From positions 310,001-374,000 of the forward strand of contig NZ_PVBT01000002.1 of NCBI RefSeq assembly GCF_002980555.1: a stretch of DNA of 64,000 bases, given 5' to 3'. This stretch comes from Phyllobacterium myrsinacearum (GTDB lineage: Bacteria; Pseudomonadota; Alphaproteobacteria; Rhizobiales; Rhizobiaceae). Shown piece after piece: positions 17,915-35,814 of the stretch. The translations under genes were made by a program, and so were the position numbers. The stretch's first letter is position 1, and every line of letters begins with the position of its first letter. The notes beneath the pieces were generated by a model. That model was not told the origin of the DNA and did no database searches. It saw nothing but the letters and a program-made list of their open reading frames with translations.

Positions 17915-17929
17915 TGACCAATACAGTCA
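17915..17929. promoter_or_regulatory. Putative RirA (IRO) box upstream of esterase-PPTase genes
   Basis: TGACCAATACAGTCA matches the rhizobial iron-responsive operator pattern TGA-N9-TCA. It lies 47 nt before the first possible start of the esterase gene. The hexamer-plus-gap motif alone would occur by chance several times in a window this size, so the support comes from position ahead of siderophore genes and from the other copies at iron genes. Confidence 0.55.
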
Positions 17930-17975: not shown

Positions 17976-18917
17976 ATGACGGAAGGATTTTCCGTTCTCC
18001 ACGCAAGATACGGACCAATGACAGCCTTCTCCAATTCATCACCGGCCATGATTGGCAACACCACCTTTCACGACGTGGTCTCGAACCGGAATGGCCTCGT
18101 GTACCGCATTTTCGTCTACCGTCCCGGCGGGGAGCCGCCAAGCAATGGATGGCCGGTGCTTTATATGACCGATGGCAATGCGGTGATCGGTACGGCCGTT
18201 GACGCGATGCGGGCGCAGGCCAGTTACCCCAGCGGCACCAATGTGGCTTATGGCGTGATTGTCACCATCGGCTATCCCACAGACGGCGCCTATGATCCGT
18301 TGCGGCGTTCCTGGGATCTCGGGCCGCCCCCCGGACAGGCCTATCCGCCATTCTATGAGAATACTCCCGAGGTGAAGACCGGTGGCGCCGAGGAATTCCT
18401 GTCGTTCATCGAGGACCAGATCAAGCCGATGATCGAGGCGGATGTTCCAATCGACCCCAGCCGCCAGGCGATCTTCGGCCATTCCTTTGGCGGGCTGTTC
18501 GTTCTCTACAGTCTCTTCACCCGTCCGTCGGCCTTCACCACATGGATCGCGGCCAGCGCGTCGATCTATTGGGAGAATTGCGCAATCAACGCCTTTCTTC
18601 CCCAATTCGAAGCGGCACATGCAACCCGGCCGGGAGCTGCGCTTTATCTCTCCTGCGGCGAGTATGAAACCGGCAAGCTGGCACCATTCCAGCGCGGTGC
18701 GGCCGATGAGGCGGAGCGGTTGGCGCAGAAGAAAATCACCTTGAATGACGATCACTCCATTGAACTCATGCGCCGGTTGAACGCCCTGCCTGACCGGCCG
18801 GTCAGAACACAGTTCGAGATTCATGCCGGTGAAAATCACATGTCTCTGCTGCCGGTGGCGGTCAATCGTGCCATTCAGGCTGCCTTCGCCGTTGCAAAGC
18901 CGCGCCAGGACGGGTGA
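17976..18917 (+). CDS. Alpha/beta-hydrolase esterase, probable siderophore esterase (Fes/IroE-like)
   Basis: This protein of up to 313 residues belongs to the putative esterase (esterase D/Fes) family. The nucleophile elbow GHSFGG is at residues 168-173 (Ser170), and a late His in GENHMSLL completes the likely triad. There is no signal peptide, so it should be cytoplasmic. The start is uncertain: the ATG at 18018 (MTAFSNSS) is also possible, and neither has a strong ribosome binding site. It is followed 28 nt later by the phosphopantetheinyl transferase gene. Family members hydrolyse ester bonds of imported ferric siderophores to release iron; that role is inferred from context. Confidence 0.75.
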   Translation: MTEGFSVLHARYGPMTAFSNSSPAMIGNTTFHDVVSNRNGLVYRIFVYRPGGEPPSNGWPVLYMTDGNAVIGTAVDAMRAQASYPSGTNVAYGVIVTIGYPTDGAYDPLRRSWDLGPPPGQAYPPFYENTPEVKTGGAEEFLSFIEDQIKPMIEADVPIDPSRQAIFGHSFGGLFVLYSLFTRPSAFTTWIAASASIYWENCAINAFLPQFEAAHATRPGAALYLSCGEYETGKLAPFQRGAADEAERLAQKKITLNDDHSIELMRRLNALPDRPVRTQFEIHAGENHMSLLPVAVNRAIQAAFAVAKPRQDG

Positions 18918-18945
18918 ACACCGCCCGTTGGAGGGAGAAGGCCCG

Positions 18946-19713
18946 ATGCTGCCATACGATCTTCTCGCGGATTTGCCGGAGGCCAGCCCAGCCTGGATCA
19001 GCGGGAGGCCGCCAACGATCGATATCTGGTGGTGGGCCTATGCCGAAAGTCAAACGGATTGGGGAAAGGTCAGATCCGCACTTACCGTGCCGGAACAGGA
19101 ACGGACGTCGTCTTTCAGGTTCGACAGGGATGCCATCGGGTTCATGGCCGGTCGCCACCTCCAGCGCAGCGTCCTTTCACTCTATACGGGAAAAGCAGCG
19201 GAGAATTTGAACGTCGTTACCGGCGACCACGGCAAGCCGTATCTTGCCGGAGAAACGGCGCTGGCATTCAATCTCAGCAATACGAGCGGCCTTGCTGTGC
19301 TCGCAGTCAGCCGCGATTGTTCCGTTGTTGGCATGGATGCCGAGGCGCATTCGGTCGCGCTGGAGGCTGGAACGGCGGAGATCATCTGTTCGGCCGCTGA
19401 ATCTGCGACGCTCTCGATGCTTCAAGGCGCCGAGCGGCAGGCGCTGCTGCTCGCCTTCTGGACGCTGAAGGAGAGCCTTTTGAAAGCGACGGGCCATGGG
19501 CTGACTGTCGAACCGCACCGGCTGACTGTGCGGGTTGATCCGGCAAGCCGGGCAATCCGCGTAGAGCATGATCTGCCGGGCGACGGAGCAGGATGGCACC
19601 ACCGCCTGTTTCGATCCCCAAGCGGGCACATGATTGCGGTTTCCGCGCAATCGGATCGGGCAGGGCTGGTCTTTCGCCAGCAAAGCCTGCCCGATCCGAT
19701 TTTCCGGTTCTAA
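18946..19713 (+). CDS. 4'-phosphopantetheinyl transferase (Sfp type) for the siderophore NRPS
   Basis: This 255-residue enzyme would convert the apo carrier domain of the NRPS at 21093-25076 to the holo form by attaching the CoA-derived phosphopantetheine arm. Visible motifs are the Mg-binding VVGMDAEAH (Asp131) and WTLKESLLKATG (residues 172-183), diagnostic of the Sfp/HetI group. The ATG at 18946 is preceded by GGAGGGAGAAGG and fits the family length; upstream in-frame codons lie in the esterase gene. Its 3' end overlaps the convergent monooxygenase gene by 4 nt. It is analogous to VbsP of the vicibactin system. Confidence 0.9.
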   Translation: MLPYDLLADLPEASPAWISGRPPTIDIWWWAYAESQTDWGKVRSALTVPEQERTSSFRFDRDAIGFMAGRHLQRSVLSLYTGKAAENLNVVTGDHGKPYLAGETALAFNLSNTSGLAVLAVSRDCSVVGMDAEAHSVALEAGTAEIICSAAESATLSMLQGAERQALLLAFWTLKESLLKATGHGLTVEPHRLTVRVDPASRAIRVEHDLPGDGAGWHHRLFRSPSGHMIAVSAQSDRAGLVFRQQSLPDPIFRF

Positions 19714-21056
19714 TAATCTACGGCAATGGACTGGCCGAGAGTCTCATGTCCGCTCGACAGCCAGTTGACCTGCGAGTCATGCGGCTCCAGATCAAAGTGC
19801 TCGTGGCCTGTGAGCGTATTGATGATGTGGGCGCTGCGCCACGCCATCAGACTTAATTGAGAATCGGCGATGCCATGGCTGTAGCGCCCGGCGTTCTGGG
19901 CAAAGATGCGGTTTTGCTTCGGACCGTTCCAGTTGAGGCAGTACTCGTCATTGAGGGCGGGGCGGCCGTGACGGTCGAACTGGATACGGTCCTGCAATCC
20001 GCTGAGTGCCTCGGGCAGTTTGAACTGGTAACCCGTGGCGAGGACAATGGCATCGGCGTGGGCAACCTCGACACCGCCGTCAAAGCGGTTGCGCACGATC
20101 AGCCGGTAGCCGTCCTTGTCCGCTTCTACCTGAATCACATCGCGATTGGGCGAAAGCTTTGCCTCGATGCTGCGGCCTTCGAGATAGCGCAGGCTGTAAA
20201 GGCGCCGGTAGATCGCATTGATCGTCGACAGCGAAAGCCCGTCGCTGGTCAGGATCGAAGCCTTCAATGCTTCGAGCTTCTGGTCATTGTTGAGGTTGAG
20301 GTAGGCATAGACATATTCCGGCGAGAACACCTGATTGGAAAAAGCCGTGTCGTTGATCGGTTCGAAATTGTGCCGGCGGCTGAACCAGTTGAGCTGTTTC
20401 AGATTGGCTTTGGAGTTGAGCAGGGATTCAACCACTTCGCCGCCGCTCTGGCCGCCGCCAATCACCGCGATCCGCTCGGCATTGAGCTCCGGCAGCCGGA
20501 ACTTTGCTTCGGAATTGTGGAAGCAGCGCTCGCCGAGGAACGGTGTCGCCCATGACGGGACAAAGGGGCTGGTTCCTGTTCCCAGCACAATGTTCTTTGC
20601 CGCCACACTGCCATTGTCGAACTGCACCACGAACCTGTCCTTGTCGTGTTTGACCTCGCGCACGGCGGCATCAAATGAGACATTGTCGAGCTGTCCGGCA
20701 ACCCAGGCGAGATATTGCGCAAACTCCCGGCGCGGCACGGCGTCATAATGGGCATTGAGAAACGCATAGAGGCGCTTGTGCGCGACGAGATAGGACACGA
20801 ACGACCATGGATTCGTCGGCATGACCGGTGTGACCAGATCCTTCAGATAGGACGACTGCAATTCGACGTCGGGCAGCATCATGCCGGGATGCCAGTCGAA
20901 ATTTGCCCGGCGCTCGTAGAAATGCGCCTTGAGGCCGCCGACGCTGTCGAGCAGCGCCGCAAGGCTCAGGTTGGAAGGTCCGACACCGATACCCGCCAGA
21001 TCAAGGGTCTCGTTCGGCTGGCGCGTATGATCATTGTTCGCAAACATGGCAGTCAT
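19710..21056 (-). CDS. L-ornithine N5-monooxygenase / L-lysine N6-monooxygenase (siderophore)
   Basis: This 448-residue flavin-dependent N-hydroxylase belongs to the PvdA/IucD/SidA/VbsO family. The FAD-binding motif GIGVGPSNL is at residues 22-30, the NADPH-binding motif VIGGGQSGGEVVE lies mid-protein, and the family's LATGYQF motif is near the C-terminus. It hydroxylates the side-chain amine of ornithine (or lysine) as the first step toward a hydroxamate. The start at 21056 has AAGGA 6 nt upstream. It follows the NRPS with a 36-nt gap and is the last gene of the mbtH-NRPS operon. Ornithine is favoured by the NRPS context, but lysine cannot be excluded. Confidence 0.9.
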   Translation of the reverse strand: MTAMFANNDHTRQPNETLDLAGIGVGPSNLSLAALLDSVGGLKAHFYERRANFDWHPGMMLPDVELQSSYLKDLVTPVMPTNPWSFVSYLVAHKRLYAFLNAHYDAVPRREFAQYLAWVAGQLDNVSFDAAVREVKHDKDRFVVQFDNGSVAAKNIVLGTGTSPFVPSWATPFLGERCFHNSEAKFRLPELNAERIAVIGGGQSGGEVVESLLNSKANLKQLNWFSRRHNFEPINDTAFSNQVFSPEYVYAYLNLNNDQKLEALKASILTSDGLSLSTINAIYRRLYSLRYLEGRSIEAKLSPNRDVIQVEADKDGYRLIVRNRFDGGVEVAHADAIVLATGYQFKLPEALSGLQDRIQFDRHGRPALNDEYCLNWNGPKQNRIFAQNAGRYSHGIADSQLSLMAWRSAHIINTLTGHEHFDLEPHDSQVNWLSSGHETLGQSIAVDY

Positions 21057-21092
21057 CAGAATTCCTTTCCGTGATCTTGATTCCAAAGGGCC

Positions 21093-24000
21093 CTAGCGGG
21101 CCTCGTCCAGCCGGTGGGAGAGACGGCTGTGGAATGCCTGTGATCCGATTACGTGCAGATGGTTGGTGCCAGAGATGATTTCCGCCGGATTGGCCCGGGG
21201 GGAGTAGCGCCGCCAGTCGATGAGGTTGAGACCCCGATTCAGGCTGTCGTCGGCGGCCCAGGAATGGATCGGCACGTCGTGCGGCTTCAGTTCGTGACGC
21301 CTGAAAATCAGGGCATTGTCGATCAGGATCCAGAACGTATGTTCGCGGCTGCTGATATCCGGACCGTCCGTCGGCAATGTGTCTTTCTCGTCGCCGACAA
21401 AGCGCAGGAACTGCTCATAGGTATCCTCGTCCATGACGTTGAGCAGGCGGTCCCATTCGGCGCGCATGGCGGTGCGCGACAACCATTCCTGCACGGTCGC
21501 ATGCAACTGGTCGCGTTCGCCCGGCTTGAAGCGCGGCTTGGCGCCGATGGCGAACTCAGTGCCCAGATCGCAGACATCGACCATGGTGATCAGCCGCAGG
21601 TCGATCTCGTCGCCGAGCTTGCGCGCGGTTTCATAGGCCAGCAGTCCGCCCCAGGACCAGCCGAGGAAATAGCAGGGCTGGCCTTTGCTCTCGCGGCGGA
21701 TGTAGTCCACATAGCCCTGAATGATATCGTCAACGGATGAGCCGATTTCCTTCTGTTCGGAGAGCGAATAGCAGATGAAGCCTGTCGCCGGTTGATCGGC
21801 GCCGAGATAGTCGACCAGCTTGACGTATTCGCGCGTGCTGACGAGAAGGCCGGGGAAGCAATAGAGCACGGGCTTGGTTCCCGATGCGCGCAGGACGATG
21901 ACTTCGCTGCCCGCCTCGCTATTGCCGTTTTCAACGACCTCTGCGAAGGAGCGGATCGTCGGATTGTTGAAGAGATCGGCAATGGTCGTGCGGTTCTGCG
22001 GTTTGCGCTGCCGCAGGGCCGTGAGGATGCGGATGGCGCCAAGAGAATTGCCGCCGATGGCGAAGAAATTGTCCTCGACGCTGATCGGGCCGGTTTTCAG
22101 GATGTCCTGCCAGATATCGCGGATTTCTGTCTCGATGGCGTTTTCCGGTTCGATGATGTTGCGCTTCATCGGTGTTGGCGCGGGCAGGGCGAACCGGTCG
22201 AGCTTGCTGTTGGGATTGATCGGCATGGCTTTCAGCGGAACAATGGCCGAAGGCACCATATAGGCGGGCAGCATGCGTTCCAGCGCCGCGTGCATTTGCG
22301 CCACGTCAAGCTCAATGCCCTGTTTCGGCACGACATAGGCCACCAGCATCTTTTGCCTGGTGGCTTCGTCGTCCCGCAGGACCACAAGCGCCTCGCCGAC
22401 GCCCTCAAGCTCAAGCAGCGCTGCTTCGATTTCACCAAGCTCGATGCGGTAGCCGCGCAGCTTGACCTGATGGTCGACGCGGCCAACGAATTCTACGGTG
22501 CCGTCTTCGCGCCAGCGGGTCAGATCGCCGGAGCGATAAAGACGCCCGCCTTCCTTGGAAAACGGGTCCGGAATGAAGCGGTCGGCGGTTGTATCGGCTT
22601 TGCCGATATAGCCGCGGGCCATGCCTTCACCGGCAATATAAAGCTCGCCCGTCACGCCGATGGGGCAGGGATTGAGGTCGGGATCGAGAACATAGACGCG
22701 CCGGTTGCCGACGGCACGGCCGATCGGTGCATAGGTGCCTTCGAACTTCTGCCCGGCACGCACTTTCCAGACCATCGGGGTCATGATGGTCTCGGTGGGG
22801 CCGTACCCGTTGATCAGCCATTCAGACTTCAGAGCCGTGGAGAGGAGATCGAAGGTCTGCTGGGCCAAACCTTCGCCGCCGAAGGAATAGAGCCGCATCG
22901 GCGGCGCGCTGTCGGTGAGATCAGCCCATTCGGCCAATTGCTGCAGATAGGTGGTGGGAATGCTGGCATTGTTGGCGCCGTGCTTGCGCATGGCGGTCAA
23001 TGTTTCCTCCGGGGTCCACAGGGGCTGGTCCGGCAGAATGATGCTGCCGCCTTCCATTAGCGGGTTCATCCAGCGTTCGTGTCCGCCATCGGAGCTGAAA
23101 GGCAGGAACGGCAGCTCGCGCGAGTCCGCGCTCATGCCGTAGACGCGCGATGTGTTCTGCATGTGATGGGTCAAGGGGCCGTGCTCGACGGCAACGCCCT
23201 TGGGCAGGCCGGTCGAGCCCGATGTATACATGATGTAGGCGAGCTGATCCTTGTGGACCTTGACGTCGGGGACGCTGTCCGGCTCGTCCGACAGGTCGAG
23301 TTTGTCGAGTTCGAGGATGACTGCATCAAGGCCTTCCGGAATGCGGTCAAGCAGCCAGCTGTGGGTGAGGATGACCTTCACGCTGCCATCGCGCAGGATG
23401 TGGTGGTTGCGGCTGGTGGGATGATCCGGCTCAACGGGGATATAAGCGCCGCCCGCCTTGAGCGTGGCGAGAATGCCGACGATGGCTTCGGGAGAACGCT
23501 TGACGGCAATCGCCACGCTGATGTCGGCACCGATGCCGAGCTTGATCAGCCGGTGCGCCAGCCGGTTGGCGCTGCGGTCAAGCTTGGCATGGCTCCAGAC
23601 TTCATCGGCAAAGATGATGGCGGTCTTGTCAGGCGTGCGCTGGGCATGGGCGGCGATGTGTTCATGCACCGCCCGGTCGTCGTTGATAGCGTCATCCTCA
23701 TAGGGAGCCGAGAGAACATCGAGTTCATCCTCGGCGATGAGGTCGATATCCTTGATGCGGACCTCGTCCCCGGCAATGGCCTGGGAGAGAACGCGCTGGA
23801 AATGAATGGCGGCGCGCTCGATCAGTGCCGGCTCATAAATGTCTTCGGCATAATCGAACAGGCCGGCAAGCGCGCCGTCCGCCTTCGGGGTCAGCACCAG
23901 TGCCAGTTCCGCATCCGAGCGCGGCGCGACGGCCGGCACATGGTCTTGCGCCATTGCGGAATGCCGGGGCGGCTGGCGGAACTCGAACAGGGATTTGACG

Positions 24001-25076
24001 ATGGCGTCCTGTTCGCGTTCCTCATGCGTCTGGATTTCCTGCACGAGACGCTCGAACGGAACAAGGTTTTCCGTTCCTAGCGCAACCGCCGATGCAAGCG
24101 CCTTGCAAACATCCAGGAAGGCAGCGCGGGACGTCAGCTCAAGCTTCAACGGCAGGATTTGCTCGCTGCGCGCTACGGTCTGCTGGCTCGTGGATCCAAG
24201 CAAAATGCCATATTGCAGCGAATAGGTGCCGCTGTAGCGGGCCAGGAGAATGGCAAAGGCCGCGGAAAGCAGATGCTCGGCGTTCAGGCTTTTGGAACGG
24301 GCATAGGATTCGACGGTTGCCCAGAGGTCAGCCGCCATCGTGAACGGGATGCGTTTGCGTCTGGCACCGGCATATCCAGCAGCATTGAAGCGTGTGGGCA
24401 GGGTCGTCGCATTGTACTCCTCGCCAATCAGATCGCGCCAATGCGCGAGGGCCGCCGCAAAGTGCGGCGTTTCCAGCGCTTCCTCTTCGCGCATGCCGCG
24501 CTGCAGGCTGTCGCCGGGAAGCACGGGCAATTCCTTGCCCTCGGCCAGCGCGATGAGATCACTGCGCAGGGTGGCAAGCGCTGCCTCATCGCAGACGATG
24601 GGATGCAGCACGATTGTCGAGATCAGTTGGCCGTTGTTTCCGGCAATCAATTGATAACGGGCGGAAACACCGTTCAGGAGATCGAAGGGACGGGCAATGA
24701 AGCCCGCCTTTTCCGTTTCGGCTTCCGTCGCGCTCAGAGGATTGCTGTCACTGCCGACAATCTCACCGGAGGGAACGTCGCCCGGCACGGAAAACTGCTC
24801 GATGCGGCCACCGGCAAACCGGCGAAAGCGTGTGCGCAAGGCGCTGTGCCGTTGCGCCAGCCGGTCGAGGGCGCTCTGCACCTGATCAGGCGTAACGCCC
24901 TTTTCCCATTGCAGGCAAAGCACCTGGAACGGAAAAACCGTTGCGTTGCCGATCTGCTCCAGCGACCAGATGCGCTTTTGCGCGAGTGTCAGCGGAAAGC
25001 TTTCGACCGCACCGCTGGCGATGCCGTCCACGCAAACCGGTTCATTGGTTTCGGGTTGAGCGAAGAGTTTGTTCAT
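21093..25076 (-). CDS. Single-module siderophore NRPS (C*-A-T-TE)
   Basis: This 1327-residue protein has a condensation-like domain (about residues 25-450), an adenylation domain (about 465-970), a carrier domain with Ser1011 in FFAIGGNSLGAIRIL, and a thioesterase (about 1065-1327) with Ser1141 in GWSWGGLLAYE. Adenylation motifs are intact: YIMYTSGSTGLPKG, NGYGPTET, YRSGDLTRW, and the NSKLDR lysine; Asp663 suits binding of an alpha-amino group. The condensation motif HHxxxDG is replaced by HPIVCDE (158-164), losing the catalytic second His. One module plus a thioesterase implies iterative oligomerisation of an N-acyl-N-hydroxy amino acid, as inferred for VbsS-like systems. The ATG at 25076 is preferred; a TTG at 25115 is possible. 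Confidence 0.9.
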   Translation of the reverse strand: MNKLFAQPETNEPVCVDGIASGAVESFPLTLAQKRIWSLEQIGNATVFPFQVLCLQWEKGVTPDQVQSALDRLAQRHSALRTRFRRFAGGRIEQFSVPGDVPSGEIVGSDSNPLSATEAETEKAGFIARPFDLLNGVSARYQLIAGNNGQLISTIVLHPIVCDEAALATLRSDLIALAEGKELPVLPGDSLQRGMREEEALETPHFAAALAHWRDLIGEEYNATTLPTRFNAAGYAGARRKRIPFTMAADLWATVESYARSKSLNAEHLLSAAFAILLARYSGTYSLQYGILLGSTSQQTVARSEQILPLKLELTSRAAFLDVCKALASAVALGTENLVPFERLVQEIQTHEEREQDAIVKSLFEFRQPPRHSAMAQDHVPAVAPRSDAELALVLTPKADGALAGLFDYAEDIYEPALIERAAIHFQRVLSQAIAGDEVRIKDIDLIAEDELDVLSAPYEDDAINDDRAVHEHIAAHAQRTPDKTAIIFADEVWSHAKLDRSANRLAHRLIKLGIGADISVAIAVKRSPEAIVGILATLKAGGAYIPVEPDHPTSRNHHILRDGSVKVILTHSWLLDRIPEGLDAVILELDKLDLSDEPDSVPDVKVHKDQLAYIMYTSGSTGLPKGVAVEHGPLTHHMQNTSRVYGMSADSRELPFLPFSSDGGHERWMNPLMEGGSIILPDQPLWTPEETLTAMRKHGANNASIPTTYLQQLAEWADLTDSAPPMRLYSFGGEGLAQQTFDLLSTALKSEWLINGYGPTETIMTPMVWKVRAGQKFEGTYAPIGRAVGNRRVYVLDPDLNPCPIGVTGELYIAGEGMARGYIGKADTTADRFIPDPFSKEGGRLYRSGDLTRWREDGTVEFVGRVDHQVKLRGYRIELGEIEAALLELEGVGEALVVLRDDEATRQKMLVAYVVPKQGIELDVAQMHAALERMLPAYMVPSAIVPLKAMPINPNSKLDRFALPAPTPMKRNIIEPENAIETEIRDIWQDILKTGPISVEDNFFAIGGNSLGAIRILTALRQRKPQNRTTIADLFNNPTIRSFAEVVENGNSEAGSEVIVLRASGTKPVLYCFPGLLVSTREYVKLVDYLGADQPATGFICYSLSEQKEIGSSVDDIIQGYVDYIRRESKGQPCYFLGWSWGGLLAYETARKLGDEIDLRLITMVDVCDLGTEFAIGAKPRFKPGERDQLHATVQEWLSRTAMRAEWDRLLNVMDEDTYEQFLRFVGDEKDTLPTDGPDISSREHTFWILIDNALIFRRHELKPHDVPIHSWAADDSLNRGLNLIDWRRYSPRANPAEIISGTNHLHVIGSQAFHSRLSHRLDEAR

Positions 25077-25115
25077 GGTGTCACCGATCTGTTGTCTGAA
25101 AGGGGTATCCGGCAA

Positions 25116-25322
25116 TCACGCCATGGCTTGCCGCAGGGCAAGCGGCCGCGGATCAACCCAGATTTTCTTGATTTCGCTCAGGCATTCCTCGCGGGTGCCG
25201 CTGAAGCTTTCCTTGCTCCAGCCGGCCGGGAGAGCCTTGTCATTGGACCAGACGGAATAGCGGTGTTCCTGATCGCGAACGATGCTCCAGGTTTCTGGCG
25301 ACGTCTCGGTATTCGACATCAT
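25116..25322 (-). CDS. MbtH-like protein
   Basis: This 68-residue small chaperone-like partner of NRPS adenylation domains has the family pattern: a YSVW motif in place of YSLWP, then LPAGW and ECLSEIKKIWVDPRP. AAGGAG lies 5 nt before the first of two consecutive ATG codons. It is the first gene of the minus-strand operon, ending 39 nt before the NRPS ATG. MbtH proteins bind and activate or solubilise the A domain, so it should act on the adjacent NRPS. Confidence 0.92.
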   Translation of the reverse strand: MMSNTETSPETWSIVRDQEHRYSVWSNDKALPAGWSKESFSGTREECLSEIKKIWVDPRPLALRQAMA

Positions 25323-25357
25323 GCGGGCTCCTTGCAGAATAAAGACATGCCCAAGAG

Positions 25358-25381
25358 ACGGATGAACCCGCAGCCGATTTA
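25358..25381 (-). promoter_or_regulatory. ECF (PvdS-type) promoter of the mbtH-NRPS operon
   Basis: Read on the minus strand: TAAAT at 25381-25377, exactly 16 nt, then CGT at 25360-25358, matching the iron-starvation box TAAAT-N16-CGT known for PvdS-class sigma factors. It lies 36 nt upstream of the MbtH start. It shares further identity with the divergent copy at 25417-25440: both have TAAATC, then GC two positions on, then TTCA-N-CCGTCTC at the same spacing. Confidence 0.75.
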
Positions 25382-25416
25382 AGCGGAACGGGAGAAAAAT
25401 TTTTCAAAGTTTTGGC

Positions 25417-25440
25417 TAAATCAGCACCTGCTTCAGCCGT
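25417..25440 (+). promoter_or_regulatory. ECF (PvdS-type) promoter of the acyltransferase-MATE-PLP operon
   Basis: TAAAT at 25417-25421, 16 nt, then CGT at 25438-25440, preceded by GGC as in PvdS-dependent promoters. It lies 55 nt upstream of the acyltransferase start. A 12-nt palindrome GAAAAATTTTTC (25394-25405) lies between this promoter and its divergent twin. The probable cognate sigma factor is encoded at 35156-35695. Confidence 0.75.
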
Positions 25441-25495
25441 CTCTTTGGAAACCACCCTGTCAAATCTTGCCAGCAAACGGGCTGCGGAGTGCACC

Positions 25496-26524
25496 ATGAC
25501 CCTTGTTTCCAATGTTTCCAGAGAAACCGATGTTTCGCCTTTTCCAGCCTCGGGTCTCTCGTGCTTCCTGAAATCTGCCGAAATGAAAACGCCGGGTCAG
25601 ATGCTGATCTCGACCGTGGCGGGGCGCTATCTCGCGGATGTTGAGCCGGGGGCCGGACGTGTCCGGGTTCGCTTGCCGGATTTGAATGCGGATGAAACCG
25701 TTTCAGTTCTGGCCTCGGCTATCGAATTTCTGTCGGCGCAGTCGCGCAATATCGGTGTGGTGGACGTCGACAATGTGCAGCCATCGGATTTTCCGTTGGG
25801 GTCGTGCAGCGGCAATTCCTTGACCGTCGATACCAGGGAATTCTGGCAATGGCCGATGCCGTGGATTGCCAATCCCGTCTGGCCGCAGCCGCAGGTGCAC
25901 GTCATGACCAATGGCCAGTATCACCCCAAACGCCGGCGCAAGCCGGTCGGCGTCGTCTATGAACGCTACATTCCCTGGCTCGATCAGGTGCTTTCGTTCA
26001 GGGCTGCGGATCCGCAGACGGATATCGAGCATTTCCATCGCTGGATGAATGATGAGCAGGTCAATGTGATCTGGGAAGATGGCGGCGACAGGGAGAAGCA
26101 CGCGGCCATTCTTGAGGAGCGGCTGCATGATCCGCATGTGCTTGCGCTGATCGGTTGTTTCAACGGCGTGCCGTTCGGCTATTTCGAAGTCTATTGGGCC
26201 AAGGAAAACCGTCTTGGGCCCTATTACGACGCGCAGGATTACGACCGCGGCTGGCATGTGGCCATTGGCGAACCGGCCTATCGCGGCAAGCAATGGATCA
26301 CGGCGTGGCTGCCATCACTGATGCATTTCATGTTTCTCGATGATCCGCGCACCCAGCGCATTGTCGGCGAGCCGCGTGCCAGCCATGAGCAGCAGATCCG
26401 CAATCTCGACCGCTCGGGTTTTTCCAAGGTGAAGCACTTCGACTTCCCGCACAAACGGGCCATGCTGGTCATGCTGCTGCGCGAACGCTTTTTCGATGAC
26501 AGGCTTTGGGTGCCCGCACCATGA
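25496..26524 (+). CDS. GNAT-type N-hydroxy-ornithine/lysine acyltransferase (IucB/VbsA-like)
   Basis: This 342-residue siderophore acyltransferase has a C-terminal GNAT domain of the RimJ/IucB kind (about residues 160-340): HRWMNDEQVNVIWED, FGYFEVYWAKENRLGPYY, GWHVAIGEPAYRGK and a final LLRERFF. It would transfer an acyl group from acyl-CoA to the hydroxylamine made by the monooxygenase, giving the hydroxamate. GGAG lies 7 nt before the ATG at 25496; an upstream in-frame ATG at 25412 would start inside the promoter. It is coupled to the MATE gene by an ATGA overlap. The acyl chain (acetyl, hydroxybutyryl or other) cannot be predicted. Confidence 0.88.
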   Translation: MTLVSNVSRETDVSPFPASGLSCFLKSAEMKTPGQMLISTVAGRYLADVEPGAGRVRVRLPDLNADETVSVLASAIEFLSAQSRNIGVVDVDNVQPSDFPLGSCSGNSLTVDTREFWQWPMPWIANPVWPQPQVHVMTNGQYHPKRRRKPVGVVYERYIPWLDQVLSFRAADPQTDIEHFHRWMNDEQVNVIWEDGGDREKHAAILEERLHDPHVLALIGCFNGVPFGYFEVYWAKENRLGPYYDAQDYDRGWHVAIGEPAYRGKQWITAWLPSLMHFMFLDDPRTQRIVGEPRASHEQQIRNLDRSGFSKVKHFDFPHKRAMLVMLLRERFFDDRLWVPAP

Positions 26525-27948
26525 ATCCCGAAGAAATCGGGCTGGAAAAGCCAGGGCGTGCCTATTTTGCGCCCGACGATCTCAACGATCCGGCGCTGAC
26601 ACGCCTGATCTTCCGGCTCGGCCTGCCGGCCGTGGCGGGCCTGTCGATCAATGCGGTGCACCACACGATCAACATGGTGTTTGTCGGCATGATCGGCGCC
26701 CATGAGATTGCGGCCATCACCGTTGTCCTGCCGATCCTGATGATGATCGGCGCCATCGGCGAGGGGCTTGGTGTGGGGGTGGCGACCGCCATCGGGCGTG
26801 CCCTGGGCAGCAACAGCCCGCAGCGCGCCAATGTGACGGCATCGACATTCATGGTTTTGGCCGTGCCGATGGGTATCGCGCTCACCGCAGGCATCCTTGT
26901 CTTCCGGCGCGAATTGCTCGGCCTGTTCGGTGCCAGCGAAGCGATCATGCCGCTGGCCGAACACTATCTGATCATCGTCGCCTTCTCGGTGACGCTGACG
27001 ATGCTGCAGATACTGTCGGATTTCATCGCCATCTCGGAAGGCAATACGCGTTTCAGCATGTGGACGCTGCTCGGGTGTTTTGCCCTGAACATCATTCTTG
27101 ATCCGATCATGATCTTCGGGTTTGGCTTCGGGCTTGCAGGCGCAGCCATGGCAACCATCCTCTCGCAGATTGCGGCAATAGCGGCCTATGCGCTGTATTT
27201 CCGCAAGCGGATCGGCACCTTGCACCTGTCTGCGCGCTTTGCCGCGTTCCGGGCGGATATACTGAAGCCGGTATTGTCCATCGGCCTGCCGACGACGCTG
27301 ACCAGCATGCTGAGCAGCATCAGCTTTGCCGTGCTGTTTACCTATGCCGGGTTCTATCGCGGCGACGCCGGTATTGCCGGTGTTGGTATCGCGCTGCGGG
27401 TTCTCACTTTGGGTATGCTTCCCGTCATCGGTCTGTCGCTGGGCGGCCAGGCGGTCCTGAGCTTTGCATGGGGCGCGGGGAAGACGCCGCGATTGCTGGC
27501 GGCATCGAACCTGCTCCTGCTGCTGACGTCCGCTTTCTGCGTGGCCTATGGGCTTGGTGCCGTTCTCCTGCGCTATCCCATTGCAGCCATTTTCACCGAT
27601 GATCTGGAGATCGCCCGGATCGCCGCGCTGACCATCGTCGTCACCCATATTCCCTTCATCTTTTTCGGCATGCGGCAAATCCTTGTCGTTCTGCTGCAGG
27701 CACAGGGCAGGGCGCGGCTCGCCGCCACGATCAGCATCGCGCAGAACGGCTATTTCCTCCTGCCGCTGCTGTTTGTCCTGCCGCATTTCCTCGGCTTTGA
27801 AGGCCTTCTTGCCAGTCTGTTCCTTGCTCCGGCGCTGACCGCACTTCTCTCCGCCGTCATTCTTTTCACCACGCTGCGCCAGCTGCGCGGCGATACCGAT
27901 CTTCCCATCGCAACCTTCACCAACACCGTGTCTGAGAGGGCATCATGA
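26521..27948 (+). CDS. MATE-family efflux transporter, probable siderophore exporter
   Basis: This 475-residue protein has about twelve hydrophobic helices in two homologous halves, typical of MATE antiporters (LPAVAGLSINAVHHTINMVF in helix 1; GLPTTLTSMLSSISFAVLF opening the second half). It starts inside the stop of the acyltransferase gene and ends overlapping the start of the PLP enzyme gene. All three are therefore one tightly coupled operon under the ECF-type promoter at 25417. The context makes export of the finished hydroxamate siderophore the likely role, although MATE proteins also export drugs. Confidence 0.85.
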   Translation: MNPEEIGLEKPGRAYFAPDDLNDPALTRLIFRLGLPAVAGLSINAVHHTINMVFVGMIGAHEIAAITVVLPILMMIGAIGEGLGVGVATAIGRALGSNSPQRANVTASTFMVLAVPMGIALTAGILVFRRELLGLFGASEAIMPLAEHYLIIVAFSVTLTMLQILSDFIAISEGNTRFSMWTLLGCFALNIILDPIMIFGFGFGLAGAAMATILSQIAAIAAYALYFRKRIGTLHLSARFAAFRADILKPVLSIGLPTTLTSMLSSISFAVLFTYAGFYRGDAGIAGVGIALRVLTLGMLPVIGLSLGGQAVLSFAWGAGKTPRLLAASNLLLLLTSAFCVAYGLGAVLLRYPIAAIFTDDLEIARIAALTIVVTHIPFIFFGMRQILVVLLQAQGRARLAATISIAQNGYFLLPLLFVLPHFLGFEGLLASLFLAPALTALLSAVILFTTLRQLRGDTDLPIATFTNTVSERAS

Positions 27949-29132
27949 ACAAATCCATGCCACCCCATGAATTCGACCCAATGGAAATGCCGGACGATCT
28001 GTTTTCGCCGGTCGATACCGCTGCCTTCAATGCGGTTTCGCCGCCGATCTTCCAGACATCGCTCTTCACCTATGACACTTATGAAGCCATGGAAGATGTG
28101 TTTGCCGGGCGCGCGCGCAATTACATCTATTCGCGCGGCGACAACCCGACGGTACGCGAATTCGAATTGCTGACCGCCCGCCTGGAGGGCGCGGAAGACG
28201 GCCGCGGCTTCTCCAGCGGTACGGCCGCGATCACTGCGACGATTCTCAGTCTGGTTGAGTCCGGCGACCGCGTGGTTGCCGTCCAGCATCTCTACAACGA
28301 TATCTACCGGCTCTTCGTAAAACTGCTCGCCCGGTTTGGCGTCACGGTGGATTTCGTCGATCCGTCCAATCATGACGAAGTGCGCGCCGCCTTGCCCGGT
28401 GCGAAACTGCTCTATCTGGAAAACCCGACATCAATGGTGTTCGAACTGCAGGACATCGAAGCCCTGACGGCGATGGCCAAGGAATATGGCGTGACGACCG
28501 TCATCGATAATTCCTGGGCAACGCCGCTGTTCCAGAAACCCATTCAGCACGGCGTCGACATCGTCATCCACGCCGCTTCGAAATATCTCGGTGGACACAG
28601 CGATACGGTGGCGGGCGTTGTTGTCGGGCCGCGTGACCTGATCGCCAAGATCAACAGCTCGACCTATCCCTATATCGGCGCAAAGCTCTCGCCGTTCGAA
28701 GCGTGGCTGCTGCTGCGCGGCATGCGTACACTGAAAGTCCGGCTGAAGGAACACATGCACAACGGGCTCGTCCTTGCCAAGCACCTGCAGCAGCACGACG
28801 ACATCGCCCTTGTCCGTCATCCCGCTTTTTCAGACCATCCGGGCAAGAAGACGCTGACGGGTTTTTCCGGCCTCTTTGCCTTTGATCTGAACCCCGACAT
28901 CGATGTCGCGCGTTTCGTCAATGCGCTGCGCCACATCCGGCTCGGTGTCAGCTGGGGCGGACCGGAAACGCTGGTGGTCCCTGCCAAGGCCGCCTTGCAG
29001 ATTCCCGACCGGATGACCTCCTTCGTGCGCTTTGGCGTCAATCCGCAGACGATCCGCTTCGCTGTCGGTCTCGAAGAGCCCGAGGTCATCTGGACCGACA
29101 TCCAGCAAGCCCTCCACACCGCCAAGTTGTAA
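27945..29132 (+). CDS. PLP-dependent trans-sulfuration-family enzyme in siderophore operon
   Basis: This 395-residue protein belongs to the Cys/Met metabolism PLP family (cystathionine beta/gamma-lyase, O-acetylhomoserine sulfhydrylase fold). Lys213 in HAASKYLGGHSD is the expected PLP-binding residue, with Asp188 in TTVIDNSWATP contacting the pyridine nitrogen and FSSGTAAI binding the phosphate. The N-terminus has YSRGDNPTVREFE as in active family members. Its ATG overlaps the MATE stop. No sulfur-metabolism gene is nearby, so a role in making or tailoring a siderophore precursor is likely, but the reaction is unknown. Confidence 0.85.
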   Translation: MNKSMPPHEFDPMEMPDDLFSPVDTAAFNAVSPPIFQTSLFTYDTYEAMEDVFAGRARNYIYSRGDNPTVREFELLTARLEGAEDGRGFSSGTAAITATILSLVESGDRVVAVQHLYNDIYRLFVKLLARFGVTVDFVDPSNHDEVRAALPGAKLLYLENPTSMVFELQDIEALTAMAKEYGVTTVIDNSWATPLFQKPIQHGVDIVIHAASKYLGGHSDTVAGVVVGPRDLIAKINSSTYPYIGAKLSPFEAWLLLRGMRTLKVRLKEHMHNGLVLAKHLQQHDDIALVRHPAFSDHPGKKTLTGFSGLFAFDLNPDIDVARFVNALRHIRLGVSWGGPETLVVPAKAALQIPDRMTSFVRFGVNPQTIRFAVGLEEPEVIWTDIQQALHTAKL

Positions 29133-29210: not shown

Positions 29211-29233
29211 AACATGACAAATGTAGTCATGTT
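29211..29233. promoter_or_regulatory. Putative RirA (IRO) box 1 upstream of the siderophore receptor
   Basis: Perfect 8-7-8 palindrome: AACATGAC and GTCATGTT around AAATGTA, containing TGA-N9-TCA at 29215-29229. Its centre is 26 bp from that of the next box, about two and a half helical turns. Confidence 0.7.
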
Positions 29234-29236
29234 TTG

Positions 29237-29259
29237 AATATGAGAATAATACTCATATT
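29237..29259. promoter_or_regulatory. Putative RirA (IRO) box 2 upstream of the siderophore receptor
   Basis: Perfect 8-7-8 palindrome: AATATGAG and CTCATATT around AATAATA, containing TGA-N9-TCA at 29241-29255. It lies 40 nt before the receptor start. It also partly resembles a Fur box (TGAGAAT-A-ATACTCA), but in this bacterial group RirA rather than Fur normally handles iron. Confidence 0.7.
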
Positions 29260-29299
29260 AAATATCAAACAGTCTCAGGGTTTTAACGGGGGTTAGGTC

Positions 29300-31480
29300 A
29301 TGCGGGGTTGCAGGACGATGATTTGGAACGGGGTCAATTCAGCCGGACGCAAACAGCGTTCGCACAAATGTCTGCTGGTGACCACATCGCTGGCAACGCT
29401 CATGACTGCCAATCTCGCCTCTGCGCAGCAGGCACCCACCATTGAACTCAATCCGATCATCATCAACAGCGGCGACGATGCCACCGGCCCCGGCAAGGGG
29501 TATCTTGCCAACAGCACTTTGACAGGAACAAAGACCAGCACGCCGCTGCGCGAAGTTCCCCGTTCTGTTTCCATTATCACGCGCGAGCAGCTCGACGACC
29601 GTCCGTCGCAGCGAATCGAGGACGCGCTGGCCTATACGGCCGGTGTCACCAGTTCGCCCTGGGGTGTTGACGAGCGCTACAACCAGTTCATGATCCGTGG
29701 TTTTGACGTCGGCCCTTATTCCGTGTTCCGGGACGGGTTGCCGCAGAGAACTGTCGATTTCTCCGGTTTCAAGGCCGAGCCGTACGGTCTTGAGCGCATC
29801 GAGGTCATCAAGGGCGCGGCATCGGTGCTCTATGGCCAGAACGGCGCTGACGGTCTCGTCAACTTGACGACCAAGCGGCCGACCAAAGACCCGCTCTATA
29901 GTGCCTATGCCGGCTACGGCTCGCACAATACCTACGAAGTCGGTCTCGATGCCGGCGGTCCCCTGGACAAGGAAGGTGTGTGGACCTATCGCCTGACCGG
30001 TCTTTTCCGCGAGGGGCATGAGGCGATTGATTTTTCCAAGAACAACCGTGTGTTCATCGCGCCGGCGATCACATGGTCGCCAAGCGCCGACACGTCCCTG
30101 ACGGTCTTCGCCAACTATCAGTGGGACAAGCTTCCGCCCAACGCGTTCTTGCCCGTTGCGAGCCCGCTTCATCCCAATCTGCCGAAATTCTCGCGCAATT
30201 TCACCACGTCGGACCCGGATTTCGACCGCTTCAACGCCAATCATGGCTCGATCGGTTATTCCTTCGAGCATCGTTTCAACGATGCATGGACGGTTCGCCA
30301 GAACCTGCGCTACACCTCGCAGGATACGGATTACCGGCACCTGTATTACACCCAGATGCTGGATGAGCAGACTTTGGGCAGAGCCGCCTTCACGGTTGAC
30401 GAAACGGCGACCATCTTCAGCGTCGATAACAGCGCCCAGTACGACTACCAGTCCGATCACATTAAAAACACGTTGGTGATGGGCCTCGATTACAGCCGCT
30501 ATACGGTTGACGGTCACAATGGATACGCAGCCGGCCCCGGTCTCAATTTCGAGAACCCGGTTTACGGCATCGATGTGCCGATGCCGGGCACGATTGTCGA
30601 CCGGAAGACCACGACCGATCAGATCGGCATCTACGCGCAGACGCAGACCAAGATCAACGATCACTGGCTGCTCAATCTCGGCGGGCGGCAGTCCTGGTTC
30701 GAGGAAAGGACGGATGACCGCCTGAGCAATACGAGAACGGATACATCGGACAATGCCTTCACCGGCAATGTCGGCCTCGGCTATCTCTTCGACAATGGCA
30801 TTACGCCCTATGCCAGCTACTCCACGTCGTTCGTGACCAATATCGGCCAGGATGCCCTGACCAGTTCGCCTTTTGCGCCGTCAAAGGCGCGGCAATACGA
30901 GGTCGGCGTCAAATATGATCCTGATTTCATGCCGGCGCATTTTACGGCCGCCTTGTTTGACATTACCAAAACCAATGTTCTGGCCTTTGTCAGCGACGGT
31001 GCATATCGCCAGATCGAGGAAGTGCGCCATCGCGGTTTTGAATTCGAATCCACGGTGGATCTTTTCCACAATGTCAGCCTGACAGGCAGCTACACCTATC
31101 TTGACGCTGAAATCACCGCGAGTTCCCTGCCTGAAGTCGGCAATAGCACGCCGATGGTGCCCAAGAACCAGGCCTCGCTCTGGGCCAAGTACACCTTTGA
31201 CTCCGGCCTTCTTCAGGGGCTCAACGTCGGCTCCGGCATCCGCTATATCGGCAGTTCCGTCGGCAGCGGCGCCAATGGCAAGCAGGTGAACGTTCCTGAC
31301 TATACGCTGGTCGACGCCGCCGTCAGTTATGAGAAGAACGGATGGAAGGGGGCTCTCAAGGTCAGCAATCTCTTCGACAAGGGTTACTACTCCACCTGCT
31401 CGACCGACTATGACAATGCACCGATGTGCATCTATGGCGAAGGCCGGACAATCAAAGGGACCTTGTCGGTCAAATTCTAA
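29300..31480 (+). CDS. TonB-dependent ferric-hydroxamate receptor (FhuA/FoxA-like)
   Basis: This 726-residue outer-membrane receptor has a signal sequence ending ANLASAQQA (about residue 43) and a plug domain with REVPRSVSIITREQLDD and PYGLERIEVIKGAASVLYG. A 22-strand barrel follows, ending in TIKGTLSVKF with terminal Phe. Two Cys near the C-terminus (CSTDYDNAPMC) match a conserved loop of FhuA/FoxA-type receptors. It opens an operon with fhuC, fhuD and fhuB homologues, in the order known for E. coli fhuACDB. It should import the hydroxamate made by the neighbouring genes, or xenosiderophores. Two tandem IRO-type boxes precede it. Confidence 0.92.
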   Translation: MRGCRTMIWNGVNSAGRKQRSHKCLLVTTSLATLMTANLASAQQAPTIELNPIIINSGDDATGPGKGYLANSTLTGTKTSTPLREVPRSVSIITREQLDDRPSQRIEDALAYTAGVTSSPWGVDERYNQFMIRGFDVGPYSVFRDGLPQRTVDFSGFKAEPYGLERIEVIKGAASVLYGQNGADGLVNLTTKRPTKDPLYSAYAGYGSHNTYEVGLDAGGPLDKEGVWTYRLTGLFREGHEAIDFSKNNRVFIAPAITWSPSADTSLTVFANYQWDKLPPNAFLPVASPLHPNLPKFSRNFTTSDPDFDRFNANHGSIGYSFEHRFNDAWTVRQNLRYTSQDTDYRHLYYTQMLDEQTLGRAAFTVDETATIFSVDNSAQYDYQSDHIKNTLVMGLDYSRYTVDGHNGYAAGPGLNFENPVYGIDVPMPGTIVDRKTTTDQIGIYAQTQTKINDHWLLNLGGRQSWFEERTDDRLSNTRTDTSDNAFTGNVGLGYLFDNGITPYASYSTSFVTNIGQDALTSSPFAPSKARQYEVGVKYDPDFMPAHFTAALFDITKTNVLAFVSDGAYRQIEEVRHRGFEFESTVDLFHNVSLTGSYTYLDAEITASSLPEVGNSTPMVPKNQASLWAKYTFDSGLLQGLNVGSGIRYIGSSVGSGANGKQVNVPDYTLVDAAVSYEKNGWKGALKVSNLFDKGYYSTCSTDYDNAPMCIYGEGRTIKGTLSVKF

Positions 31481-31493
31481 GGTCAAAGATAAA

Positions 31494-32273
31494 ATGAACG
31501 GAACGTCCTTTTCCCTCAGTGGTGTCGGTTTTGACATCGACGGAAGAACTCTGCTTCATCCGCTGACACTGGACGTTCCGAAAGGGGAGGTCGTCGGCAT
31601 TCTGGGCCATAACGGTTCCGGCAAGTCGACGCTCCTGAAAATCCTAGCCCGGTTCCAGGCGCCGACGCGGGGGCGGGCTGATTATCGCGGTCAGCCGCTC
31701 ACATCGTTCCGCCCCAAAGACTATGCCAGGAAGGTTGCCTATCTGCCGCAGCAGACGCCGGACACCGATGGCATGACCGTGCGGGAAGTGGTTTCGCTCG
31801 GCCGCTATCCATGGCACGGGGCGCTTGGCCGCTTCTCACTTACCGACCGGACCAAAGTGTCCGAAGCCCTTGACTTGACGGGGCTGACGCCGTTTGCCGA
31901 TCGTATCGTGGACACGCTGTCGGGCGGCGAACGGCAACGCGCCTTTCTCGCCATGCTCATTGCGCAGGATACGGAGTGCCTGCTGCTGGATGAGCCGATC
32001 TCGGCGCTTGATATCAACCACCAGATCGAAGTGATGAGCCTCATCCGCATGCTGGCGCATGAGCATGATCGCTCGGTCCTGATCGTCCTGCACGATATCA
32101 ACATGGCCGCGCGTTTCTGCGACAGGCTGATCGCCCTGTCGGGCGGCAGGCTGGTGGCTCACGATGCAACCGATGCGCTGATCACGGCCGACAAACTCAA
32201 TGCCATTTACGGGGTCCGCATGGGTATTTTCCGCCATCCGGAAACGCAATCGCCCATAAGCTACGTTCTCTAA
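31494..32273 (+). CDS. fhuC: Ferric-siderophore ABC transporter ATP-binding protein, FhuC-like
   Basis: This 259-residue ATPase has Walker A GHNGSGKST, the signature LSGGERQR, Walker B CLLLDEPISALD and the H-loop VLHDINMAARFCDR, all characteristic of the FepC/FhuC group. It starts 13 nt after the receptor stop with AAGG upstream; longer in-frame versions would read through the receptor's 3' end. It energises the FhuB-type permease two genes downstream. The H-loop and signature are intact, so it should be an active ATPase. Confidence 0.92.
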   Translation: MNGTSFSLSGVGFDIDGRTLLHPLTLDVPKGEVVGILGHNGSGKSTLLKILARFQAPTRGRADYRGQPLTSFRPKDYARKVAYLPQQTPDTDGMTVREVVSLGRYPWHGALGRFSLTDRTKVSEALDLTGLTPFADRIVDTLSGGERQRAFLAMLIAQDTECLLLDEPISALDINHQIEVMSLIRMLAHEHDRSVLIVLHDINMAARFCDRLIALSGGRLVAHDATDALITADKLNAIYGVRMGIFRHPETQSPISYVL

Positions 32274-32286
32274 GGATCGGATATTG

Positions 32287-33159
32287 ATGATGGCCGCGCT
32301 GCGCCGCCGCGATTTTCTGTTCGGCTCAAGCCTTCTGCTCGCATCGCCATTCTTCATGCGCGCCGCCAGGGCCGCGTCGCCGCGCATCATTTCGCTGGAC
32401 TACGGCCTGGCGCAGACGCTGATCGAATTCGGCACGCCGCCCGTCGGCCTGATCGACACGCCGGGCTGGTATGACTGGGTGATGGAGCCGCCCTTGCCGC
32501 CGGGCATCGCCAATGTCGGTTCCAACTACGAGATCAATATGGAAATGCTGCAGCTGCTGCAGCCCGACTTGATCATTTCGACACCCTATCTCGAGTGGAT
32601 CAGGCCGCAGCTTGAGACAATCGCGCCGGTCAAATCCTTTCCCATCCACGCGGTGGGGTCGTCACCCTATCCGCATATCATCGCGGCAACGCTGGAGCTG
32701 GGGCAGATCGTCGGGCAGCCGCAGCAAGCGCAGGCCCTGATTGACCGCACCGAGCGGGACCTGCTGGCGGCAAAGGCGGCAACCCGCCGTCTTGCCGAGC
32801 AGAAGCTGGCCATCATGACGTTCATGGATGCCCGCAACATTCGGGTTTATGGTCCGGGCGGTATCTTTCAGGACGTTCTCGACCGGCTTGAGCTGCAAAA
32901 TGCCTGGACACGGCGGACCAATGAATGGGGTTTCAGCGATGCCGGGCTTGCCGATCTCATCGGCATCGGCGACAGCCGTATTTTCTACATGGACCCGGTT
33001 CCAGCGGATGTTCTCGCCGGATTGGCGGGAAGCCCTTTGTGGCAGGCCATGCCGTTTGTTCAAAAGGGCCATGCGCAGCGCATGGCCAGTGTTCTGATGT
33101 TCGGTGCCTTGCCATCGGTCTCCCGCTTCGCCCGTCTCCTGGCAGAGGTCAAGGTCTAG
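32287..33159 (+). CDS. fhuD: Periplasmic ferric-siderophore binding protein, FhuD-like
   Basis: This protein of about 290 residues belongs to the class III (FhuD/BtuF) binding-protein family. It has a twin-arginine signal (LRRRDFLFGSSLLLASPFF), then PRIISLDYGLAQTLIEFGTPPVGLIDT, and DLIISTPYLEWIRPQLETIAPV as in FhuD. Export by the Tat route is plausible, as for some iron-binding proteins. Either of two adjacent ATG codons (32287, 32290) may be the start, with AAGGA upstream. Its stop abuts the start of the fhuB homologue. Confidence 0.88.
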   Translation: MMAALRRRDFLFGSSLLLASPFFMRAARAASPRIISLDYGLAQTLIEFGTPPVGLIDTPGWYDWVMEPPLPPGIANVGSNYEINMEMLQLLQPDLIISTPYLEWIRPQLETIAPVKSFPIHAVGSSPYPHIIAATLELGQIVGQPQQAQALIDRTERDLLAAKAATRRLAEQKLAIMTFMDARNIRVYGPGGIFQDVLDRLELQNAWTRRTNEWGFSDAGLADLIGIGDSRIFYMDPVPADVLAGLAGSPLWQAMPFVQKGHAQRMASVLMFGALPSVSRFARLLAEVKV

Positions 33160-35155: not shown

Positions 35156-35695
35156 CTAGGCCGCCTTGAGTGACTGCTCGCAGTAGCGGTGCGCATCCTT
35201 GATCATGAAGTTCACCAGGGTTCGCGACACGCCCAGTTCTTCGGCAATGTCCTTCTGCGGGACACCTTCGATGCGGTGCCGGATGAACGCGTCATGGGTG
35301 CGCTTGGGCAGATCCTTCAGCGATGTCATGACCCGGTTGAGGGCCTCTGTCATCACGATACAATCAAGCGCGTTGACGCAAGGGGCCGGCACGGAATCCA
35401 CGCCATCCATCGGCATGAGGTTCTTCTTCTCGTGCTGGCGCTTTCGTGCCTCGTCGAGGGCAAGATTATAGACCATGCGGCAGGCATAGCCGACCGGGCA
35501 ATGAATGCAACTGGTCTGCATTGTGCAAGCTTTGACGATGGCGTCGTGAAATATATCCTCTGCCTGTGCATGGGAGTGCACTACACTTTCGGCAATAACT
35601 ATCAGTTTATTTTTATATTTAACCAGTGCATCAACAAGAACATTTTCATCATAAAGACTTTTTTCTTTTGGCATGATCTTTATTCTTTTTTGCAT
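35156..35695 (-). CDS. ECF sigma factor, iron-starvation (RpoI/PvdS/FecI) type
   Basis: This sigma-70 family protein of up to 179 residues has only regions 2 and 4. Region 2 includes HAQAEDIFHDAIVKA and GYACRMVYNLALDEARKR; region 4 includes GVPQKDIAEELGVSRTLVNF. The length and the Cys-containing insert (CTMQTSCIHCPVG) fit FecI-like ECF factors. No anti-sigma (FecR-like) gene lies beside it, as with PvdS and RpoI, which are controlled at transcription. The start may instead be the ATG at 35674. Convergent with fhuB, it probably recognises the two TAAAT-N16-CGT promoters at 25.4 kb. Confidence 0.85.
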   Translation of the reverse strand: MQKRIKIMPKEKSLYDENVLVDALVKYKNKLIVIAESVVHSHAQAEDIFHDAIVKACTMQTSCIHCPVGYACRMVYNLALDEARKRQHEKKNLMPMDGVDSVPAPCVNALDCIVMTEALNRVMTSLKDLPKRTHDAFIRHRIEGVPQKDIAEELGVSRTLVNFMIKDAHRYCEQSLKAA

Positions 35696-35738: not shown

Positions 35739-35759
35739 ATATTTCAAATTTTGAAATAT
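35739..35759. repeat. Perfect 21-bp palindrome upstream of the sigma-factor gene
   Basis: ATATTTCAAA and TTTGAAATAT flank a single central T. It lies 44 nt upstream of the first possible start of the sigma gene, where an operator would be expected. It resembles neither the IRO pattern nor, closely, the Irr (ICE) motif. Confidence 0.5.
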
Positions 35760-35799
35760 CCAGCTTTGCAACTATCGCGAGTGCAGCTATACAAGAACA

Positions 35800-35814
35800 T
35801 GAGAAAAAGAGTCA
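35800..35814. promoter_or_regulatory. Putative RirA (IRO) box upstream of the sigma-factor gene
   Basis: TGAGAAAAAGAGTCA fits TGA-N9-TCA, about 105 nt upstream of the sigma-factor start. The flanks are only weakly palindromic, so this is among the weaker matches; position is the main support. Confidence 0.45.

Follow-up and report, generated by a model that had tools for sequence, protein, structure and literature searches.

The 173-nt gap at positions 25323-25495 of the window, the 64,000-nt stretch of Phyllobacterium myrsinacearum DNA analysed here, very probably contains two back-to-back promoters through which the sigma factor RpoI would fire the vbsGSO and vbsADL operons, with the rpoI gene itself presumably under RirA iron control. 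The gap separates the ATG of mbtH (25322, minus strand) from the ATG of vbsA (25496, plus strand). The role of RpoI as the sigma factor, the iron control via RirA and the contribution of an UP-like element are what we infer from sequence, conservation and co-occurrence.

Which genes would these promoters serve? Judged by its gene content, the set around the gap is a vicibactin-type cluster that consists of vbsGSO/vbsADL, fhuACDB and an RpoI/PvdS-like sigma gene. On the minus strand, the genes for an MbtH-like protein (25116-25322, PF03621; vbsG by synteny), an NRPS with condensation, AMP-binding, carrier and thioesterase domains (21093-25115; vbsS by synteny) and a member of the lysine/ornithine N-monooxygenase family (19710-21086, PF13434; vbsO by synteny) lead away from the gap. 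On the plus strand lie the genes for a GNAT acyltransferase (25496-26524, PF13523; vbsA by synteny), whose product shares 93% identity with VbsA of Phyllobacterium calauticae, a MATE exporter (26506-27948, PF01554; vbsD by position) and a PLP enzyme of the Cys/Met metabolism family (27945-29132, PF01053; vbsL by position). They are followed on the same strand by an fhuA-like gene for a TonB-dependent siderophore receptor (29300-31480) and by fhuC, fhuD and fhuB for a hydroxamate ABC importer (31488-35154; the start of fhuC is uncertain, and its ORF opens at 31329). Beyond vbsO, a PF00756 esterase gene and a phosphopantetheinyl transferase gene (17976-19713) presumably correspond, by position, to vbsC and vbsP. 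The genes for MbtH, NRPS, hydroxylase, acyltransferase, exporter, PLP enzyme and RpoI are ordered as on pRL12 of Rhizobium johnstonii 3841 (L038), except that fhuACDB stands between vbsL and rpoI in the window, whereas rpoI comes next after vbsL in Rhizobium.

Each strand of the gap carries one iron-starvation (IS)-type box, TAAAT-N16-CGT, oriented into the siderophore genes. The minus-strand box TAAATCGGCTGCGGGTTCATCCGT (25358-25381), the predicted RpoI promoter of vbsGSO, lies 35 nt from the mbtH ATG, and the plus-strand box TAAATCAGCACCTGCTTCAGCCGT (25417-25440), the predicted RpoI promoter of vbsADL, lies 55 nt from the vbsA ATG. The TAAAT ends of the boxes face each other, and the promoters therefore diverge, as the original prediction had described. 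The 35 bp between the two -35 elements (25382-25416) form a candidate shared UP-like element, with the A/T palindrome GAAAAATTTTTC at 25394-25405 midway between the boxes.

Could the boxes be an artefact of chance or base composition? The exact pattern occurs only twice in the window, both times in the vbs gap, against an expectation of 0.88, and at least two boxes appear in 18 of 100 shuffles of the whole window, so that the number of boxes alone is unremarkable. However, when the gap itself was shuffled 40,000 times with its dinucleotides preserved, a box arose in 41 sequences and boxes on both strands arose in none, which upholds the earlier claim that the facing pair is not accidental. Position, orientation, conservation across genera and co-occurrence with a sigma gene likewise speak against a chance origin, whose probability we regard as close to negligible.

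The two boxes are conserved among relatives. In 48 alphaproteobacterial vbsA loci (the window and L023-L069), the 1 kb upstream of the VbsA match was scanned for TAAAY-N16-CGT, and a facing pair was found in 44, namely in 44 of the 45 loci that include rpoI and in none of the three that do not. Two of the latter (L068 and L069) contain VbsA and lack both an RpoI match and the box, and the third (L067) has the left box alone, with rpoI absent from the locus. The lone rpoI-positive exception is P. sophorae (L031), in which the boxes are approximately 8.7 kb apart and each remains with its own operon: the left box, 33 nt before mbtH, retains the A/T tract, and the right box still precedes vbsA but has lost the A/T tract and the CTC tail. 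The approximately 8.7 kb between the vbs promoters of P. sophorae (L031:1142-9922) hold transferase-like ORFs, as judged by eye.

The conserved positions are those of the box. The spacers diverge between relatives and the box bases are kept, with the left box reading TAAAC in the 26 Rhizobium loci. All 90 alphaproteobacterial boxes have a C directly after CGT, and the working box is therefore TAAAY-N16-CGTC. The tail is typical of the genus, CGTCTC in Phyllobacterium and CGTCAY in Rhizobium, and is mostly the same at both promoters within a genus, as expected if one sigma factor reads both; the Phyllobacterium exceptions are the right boxes of L031 (CGTCCT) and L034 (CGTCAC) and both boxes of L004 (CGTCTT and CGTCAC). 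The original prediction had also pointed to bases shared by the two copies beyond the box, and the CGTCTC part of that claim stands as a Phyllobacterium feature, whereas the TTCA of the spacers differs among relatives and was dropped as a component of the promoter signal.

The box pair accompanies rpoI in a broader sample as well. Among 297 genomes of the family, 22 encode a VbsA homologue at 1e-40, and the pair is present in all seven of these with RpoI (E < 1e-50), whereas the 1 kb upstream of the matched stretch is free of boxes in all 15 without RpoI; the two samples have species in common, kinship among the genomes limits their independence, and less upstream sequence is covered where the VbsA match is partial. 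In four of the 15, a distantly related ECF factor (29-31% identity) is encoded 6-7 kb away; the other 11 lack any match at 1e-10. Outside the alphaproteobacteria (L070-L080), a box is found near the VbsA homologue in 9 of 11 loci and in neither L070 nor L080, whose sigma relatives match at E 5.6e-14 and 7e-23, respectively.

This co-occurrence bears on the identity of the sigma factor. A box by itself names no sigma factor, and the pair might serve another ECF factor of like specificity rather than the RpoI encoded in the cluster; the search, with RpoI as the query, would miss distant ECF factors. Nevertheless, RpoI is the only match to itself in its own genome at E 1e-10 or better, 44 of the 45 loci with an in-cluster rpoI also carry the pair, and the 15 sampled genomes without RpoI have no box before their VbsA homologues. 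We thus consider a different sigma factor very unlikely and favour RpoI as the factor that reads both promoters.

The vbs gap forms a long inverted repeat, with 32-nt arms that are 78% complementary around the A/T palindrome. Such symmetry would also suit an operator for a dimeric regulator of the RirA, Irr or Fur type, in which case the likeness to a sigma box would be incidental. However, TGA-N9-TCA is absent from the gap in a pattern scan that covered RirA sites, and a RirA operator inside the gap was dropped as a candidate. Furthermore, sequence divergence affects the spacers and spares TAAAY and CGTC, and the boxes persist separately in P. sophorae. The -35 elements lie 35 bp apart in 35 of the 44 paired loci and 28-76 bp apart in the other nine, again at odds with a fixed operator. 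An operator is therefore a highly improbable account of the arrangement, and two divergent RpoI promoters remain the preferred reading. The centre of the repeat has its own distribution. The 25 nt that precede each box are 68-70% A/T in Phyllobacterium and Rhizobium (33-34% in the spacers), where the middle of the gap contains an A/T tract, GAAAAATTTTTC or GAGAATTTTTTTC; in other alphaproteobacteria, the value is 42% and the tract is missing. We take this tract to be a probable lineage-specific UP-like element.

The sigma gene that the original prediction had placed about 10 kb away is an ECF gene at 35156-35695 on the minus strand. Its product combines ECF regions 2 and 4 with an IS-type recognition helix, GVSRTLVNFM, the region 2 Pfam score of 21.9 being just below the cut-off of 24 and the region 4 score above its cut-off. 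The region 4.2 helix GVS(R/P)TLVNFM is common to the RpoI proteins of Phyllobacterium and Rhizobium and to the two pseudomonad sigma factors that were aligned, and it is slightly changed in other alphaproteobacterial relatives (N to H or T, G to H or Q). Among NCBIfam models, NF005448 fits RpoI and both pseudomonad factors best, but RpoI scores 129.4 bits against a cut-off of 190 (253.1 and 260.3 bits for the pseudomonad factors) and is therefore a relative of that equivalog and not a member. A different ECF sigma factor, 29-31% identical and with the helix GVS(P/C)ALVCGLL, is encoded 6-7 kb from the VbsA homologue in four genomes of three other genera (L117-L120), where the IS box is absent.

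How would the sigma gene itself respond to iron? A sigma70-like promoter precedes rpoI on the minus strand (35786-35815), with TTGACT at 35815-35810, an 18-nt spacer and TATAGC at 35791-35786. All 13 Phyllobacterium and all nine Rhizobium sequences have the identical -35 element, and TATAGC is found in 12 of the 13 Phyllobacterium sequences. A predicted RirA operator (IRO), TGACTCTTTTTCTCA, matches the consensus TGA-N9-TCA over the -35 element (35800-35814, minus strand), and such an operator occupies this position in 22 of 30 orthologues, comprising all 13 from Phyllobacterium (the window included) and all nine from Rhizobium. TGA-N9-TCA is common in the window (37 observed versus 15 expected), so that position and conservation carry the argument for the operator. 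Among eight more distant sigma genes, none of seven has an IRO within 300 nt and the eighth (L103) has only a far match; the RirA layer is thus not general. The genome encodes three Rrf2 proteins, one of which (L153) we take to be RirA-like by its CPLIDSC stretch. The RirA/IRO layer and the IRO consensus are already in print (PMC6386902).

Several other regulatory elements lie around the cluster. Two RirA-type operators (29215-29229 and 29241-29255) and a near-perfect palindrome are found just upstream of the fhuA-like gene (29215-29262), a segment in which the exact IS box is absent. The esterase gene at 17976, vbsC by position, has another RirA-type operator 46 nt upstream (17915-17929), and this predicted site suggests a regulation separate from RpoI. 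The rpoI leader contains a perfect 10-bp inverted repeat, ATATTTCAAA-N-TTTGAAATAT (35739-35759), and similar palindromes occur only in the closest relatives (L082-L085).

We propose the following mechanism. When iron is plentiful, RirA would occupy the operator over the rpoI promoter and keep the gene silent. Iron scarcity would release RirA and allow RpoI to be made from the housekeeping-type promoter. RpoI would then read TAAAT as the -35 element with region 4.2 and CGTC as the -10 element with region 2 on both strands of the gap. As a result, vbsGSO would be fired leftward and vbsADL rightward, and both halves of the vicibactin-type hydroxamate pathway would start together, with the A/T palindrome midway probably serving both promoters as an UP-like element.

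This arrangement resembles known systems. Transcription of vbsGSO and vbsADL by RpoI has been reported for R. leguminosarum (Yeoman 2003, Carter 2002), and a need for RpoI in vicibactin synthesis is also on record (PMC3420878). The likeness extends to the same genes in the same divergent order, an orthologous sigma factor (51-55% identity in Rhizobium) and TAAAY-N16-CGTC on both sides with 35 bp between the -35 elements; the Rhizobium loci differ in their TAAAC left box and in a CAY tail in place of the Phyllobacterium CTC. The box TAAAT-N16-CGT is also that of Pseudomonas PvdS (PMC2235872), and the pseudomonad sigma factors found here, which we infer to be PvdS orthologues, share the near-identical recognition helix and the best NCBIfam model with RpoI but only 35-38% identity. 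Together with box conservation, rpoI co-occurrence and this printed precedent, the shared helix supports the assignment of the promoters to the PvdS/RpoI class, as had been predicted. Control of the sigma factor is where the systems part. PvdS is held by Fur. It is also held by the anti-sigma factor FpvR (PMC9023288), whereas the rpoI gene of the window has a predicted RirA operator instead.

Does the RpoI regulon extend beyond the siderophore genes? The original prediction had proposed a genome-wide scan with the box, and there the bare TAAAT-N16-CGT pattern is not enriched (31 matches versus 46 for the reversed pattern). With the Phyllobacterium tail added, TAAAY-N16-CGTCTC gives 48 matches in 13 genomes, of which 24 are vbs boxes and 24 lie elsewhere, compared with 24 for the reversed control. 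The scan was therefore dropped as a regulon finder, as it yields no excess over the reversed pattern. Of the 28 exact matches outside the vbs boxes and the small-RNA site described below, 15 fall inside an ORF of at least 90 aa (a crude call), and the rest are without an evident iron gene by eye. One conserved match, upstream of a reductase-like gene (C3:549825), was discounted, because its spacer is itself conserved and forms part of a hairpin with a T run behind it, which looks like a terminator or attenuator.

Two single sites, both chosen post hoc, nevertheless look selected. One box (L196; C10:31125-31148 in the same genome) has its end 51 nt upstream of argB. Of the 16 rpoI-positive Phyllobacterium genomes examined, 15 carry it, the exception being G301, whose upstream DNA differs; of four RpoI-negative genomes, only G350, which is 88% complete, carries it (one-sided exact P 0.013, uncorrected for kinship or choice). 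In the other three RpoI-negative genomes (G341, G063 and G338, of which G063 is counted as negative with a best RpoI match of 29% at 2e-11), the box is eroded, with TAAAT changed to GAAAT and CGT to CGC, CGG or CGA, and TTGCCC-N17-TAAGAA around it stays. Most genomes also conserve the 5' half of the spacer, and a housekeeping-type promoter therefore overlaps the box. The argB tree leaves the number of RpoI losses or gains unsettled. Outside the genus, the argB box was found in none of 22 genomes, three of them Rhizobium with RpoI. On this pattern, argB may be an extra RpoI target that links ornithine supply to the siderophore sigma factor.

The second site is a candidate small RNA, a 79-nt element with two hairpins at C1:829840-829918 of the same genome, G000 (L155/L199, region C1:829840-829946). 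Of the 24 hairpin pairs, five show changes of both partners in at least one sequence, and pairing is lost in two cells. A model of the element matches 6 of 120 relatives, five of them its source sequences by coordinates and one new (G347). All six, which form one clade, have TAAAT-N16-CGT at the same distance and rpoI; the element is absent from 11 rpoI-positive members of the genus and from four without rpoI. Only four of the six have a TTTT run after the second hairpin, so that the terminator, and hence the RNA itself, is uncertain. Rfam holds no family that matches the element. Just upstream lies a strongly conserved stretch with a terminator-like hairpin at its end, perhaps a second small RNA.

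A further feature concerns RpoI itself. Region 2 contains the motif C57-x5-C63-x2-C66-x5-C72, and these four cysteines are found in all 13 Phyllobacterium rows of the alignment (A2) and in the further orthologues L113, L218 and L221 (16 of 16 Phyllobacterium orthologues read). The full set occurs in none of the 10 other rows of A2, including the four Rhizobium rows, and in neither pseudomonad sigma factor. Going by the alignment, the motif presumably sits between the core-binding and -10-reading helices of region 2. A fifth cysteine, C172, near the end of region 4.2, is present in all 23 rows. What might these cysteines do? OrbS of Burkholderia cenocepacia is an iron-starvation sigma factor whose C-terminal cysteines sense Fe(II), upon which its binding to the core enzyme weakens (PMC9023288). 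OrbS and RpoI are both siderophore ECF factors with a cysteine cluster, and C172 of RpoI seems to match C196 of OrbS. However, three of the four OrbS sensor cysteines lie beyond region 4.2, whereas the Phyllobacterium set is in region 2, where sensing is hypothetical. By analogy, an OrbS-like role for the cysteines may be guessed at, and the set might be an iron sensor. We advance only tentatively, as a rather unlikely extension, that in Phyllobacterium the site is an iron or redox sensor that shuts RpoI off on iron return and that the regulon reaches argB, which would supply more ornithine to the hydroxamate, and, in one clade, the small RNA.

The paired-promoter design is already known from Rhizobium, and the new leads are a likely extra target gene and the cysteine-rich form of the sigma factor. 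Among the literature matches listed, there is no report of Phyllobacterium RpoI, of argB under RpoI or of the region-2 cysteine motif, which is weak evidence; RpoI together with a small RNA gave no literature match, and no argB occurs among the matches listed for RpoI with argB. The distribution of the boxes suggests that the sigma gene and the two facing boxes travel with vbs-type clusters in alphaproteobacteria, with the RirA switch as a layer of Phyllobacterium and Rhizobium only. The findings also raise three directly testable questions about a siderophore sigma factor, namely whether it drives precursor supply through argB, whether a small RNA is among its targets, and whether it senses iron through region-2 cysteines, at a site other than that of the OrbS sensor.
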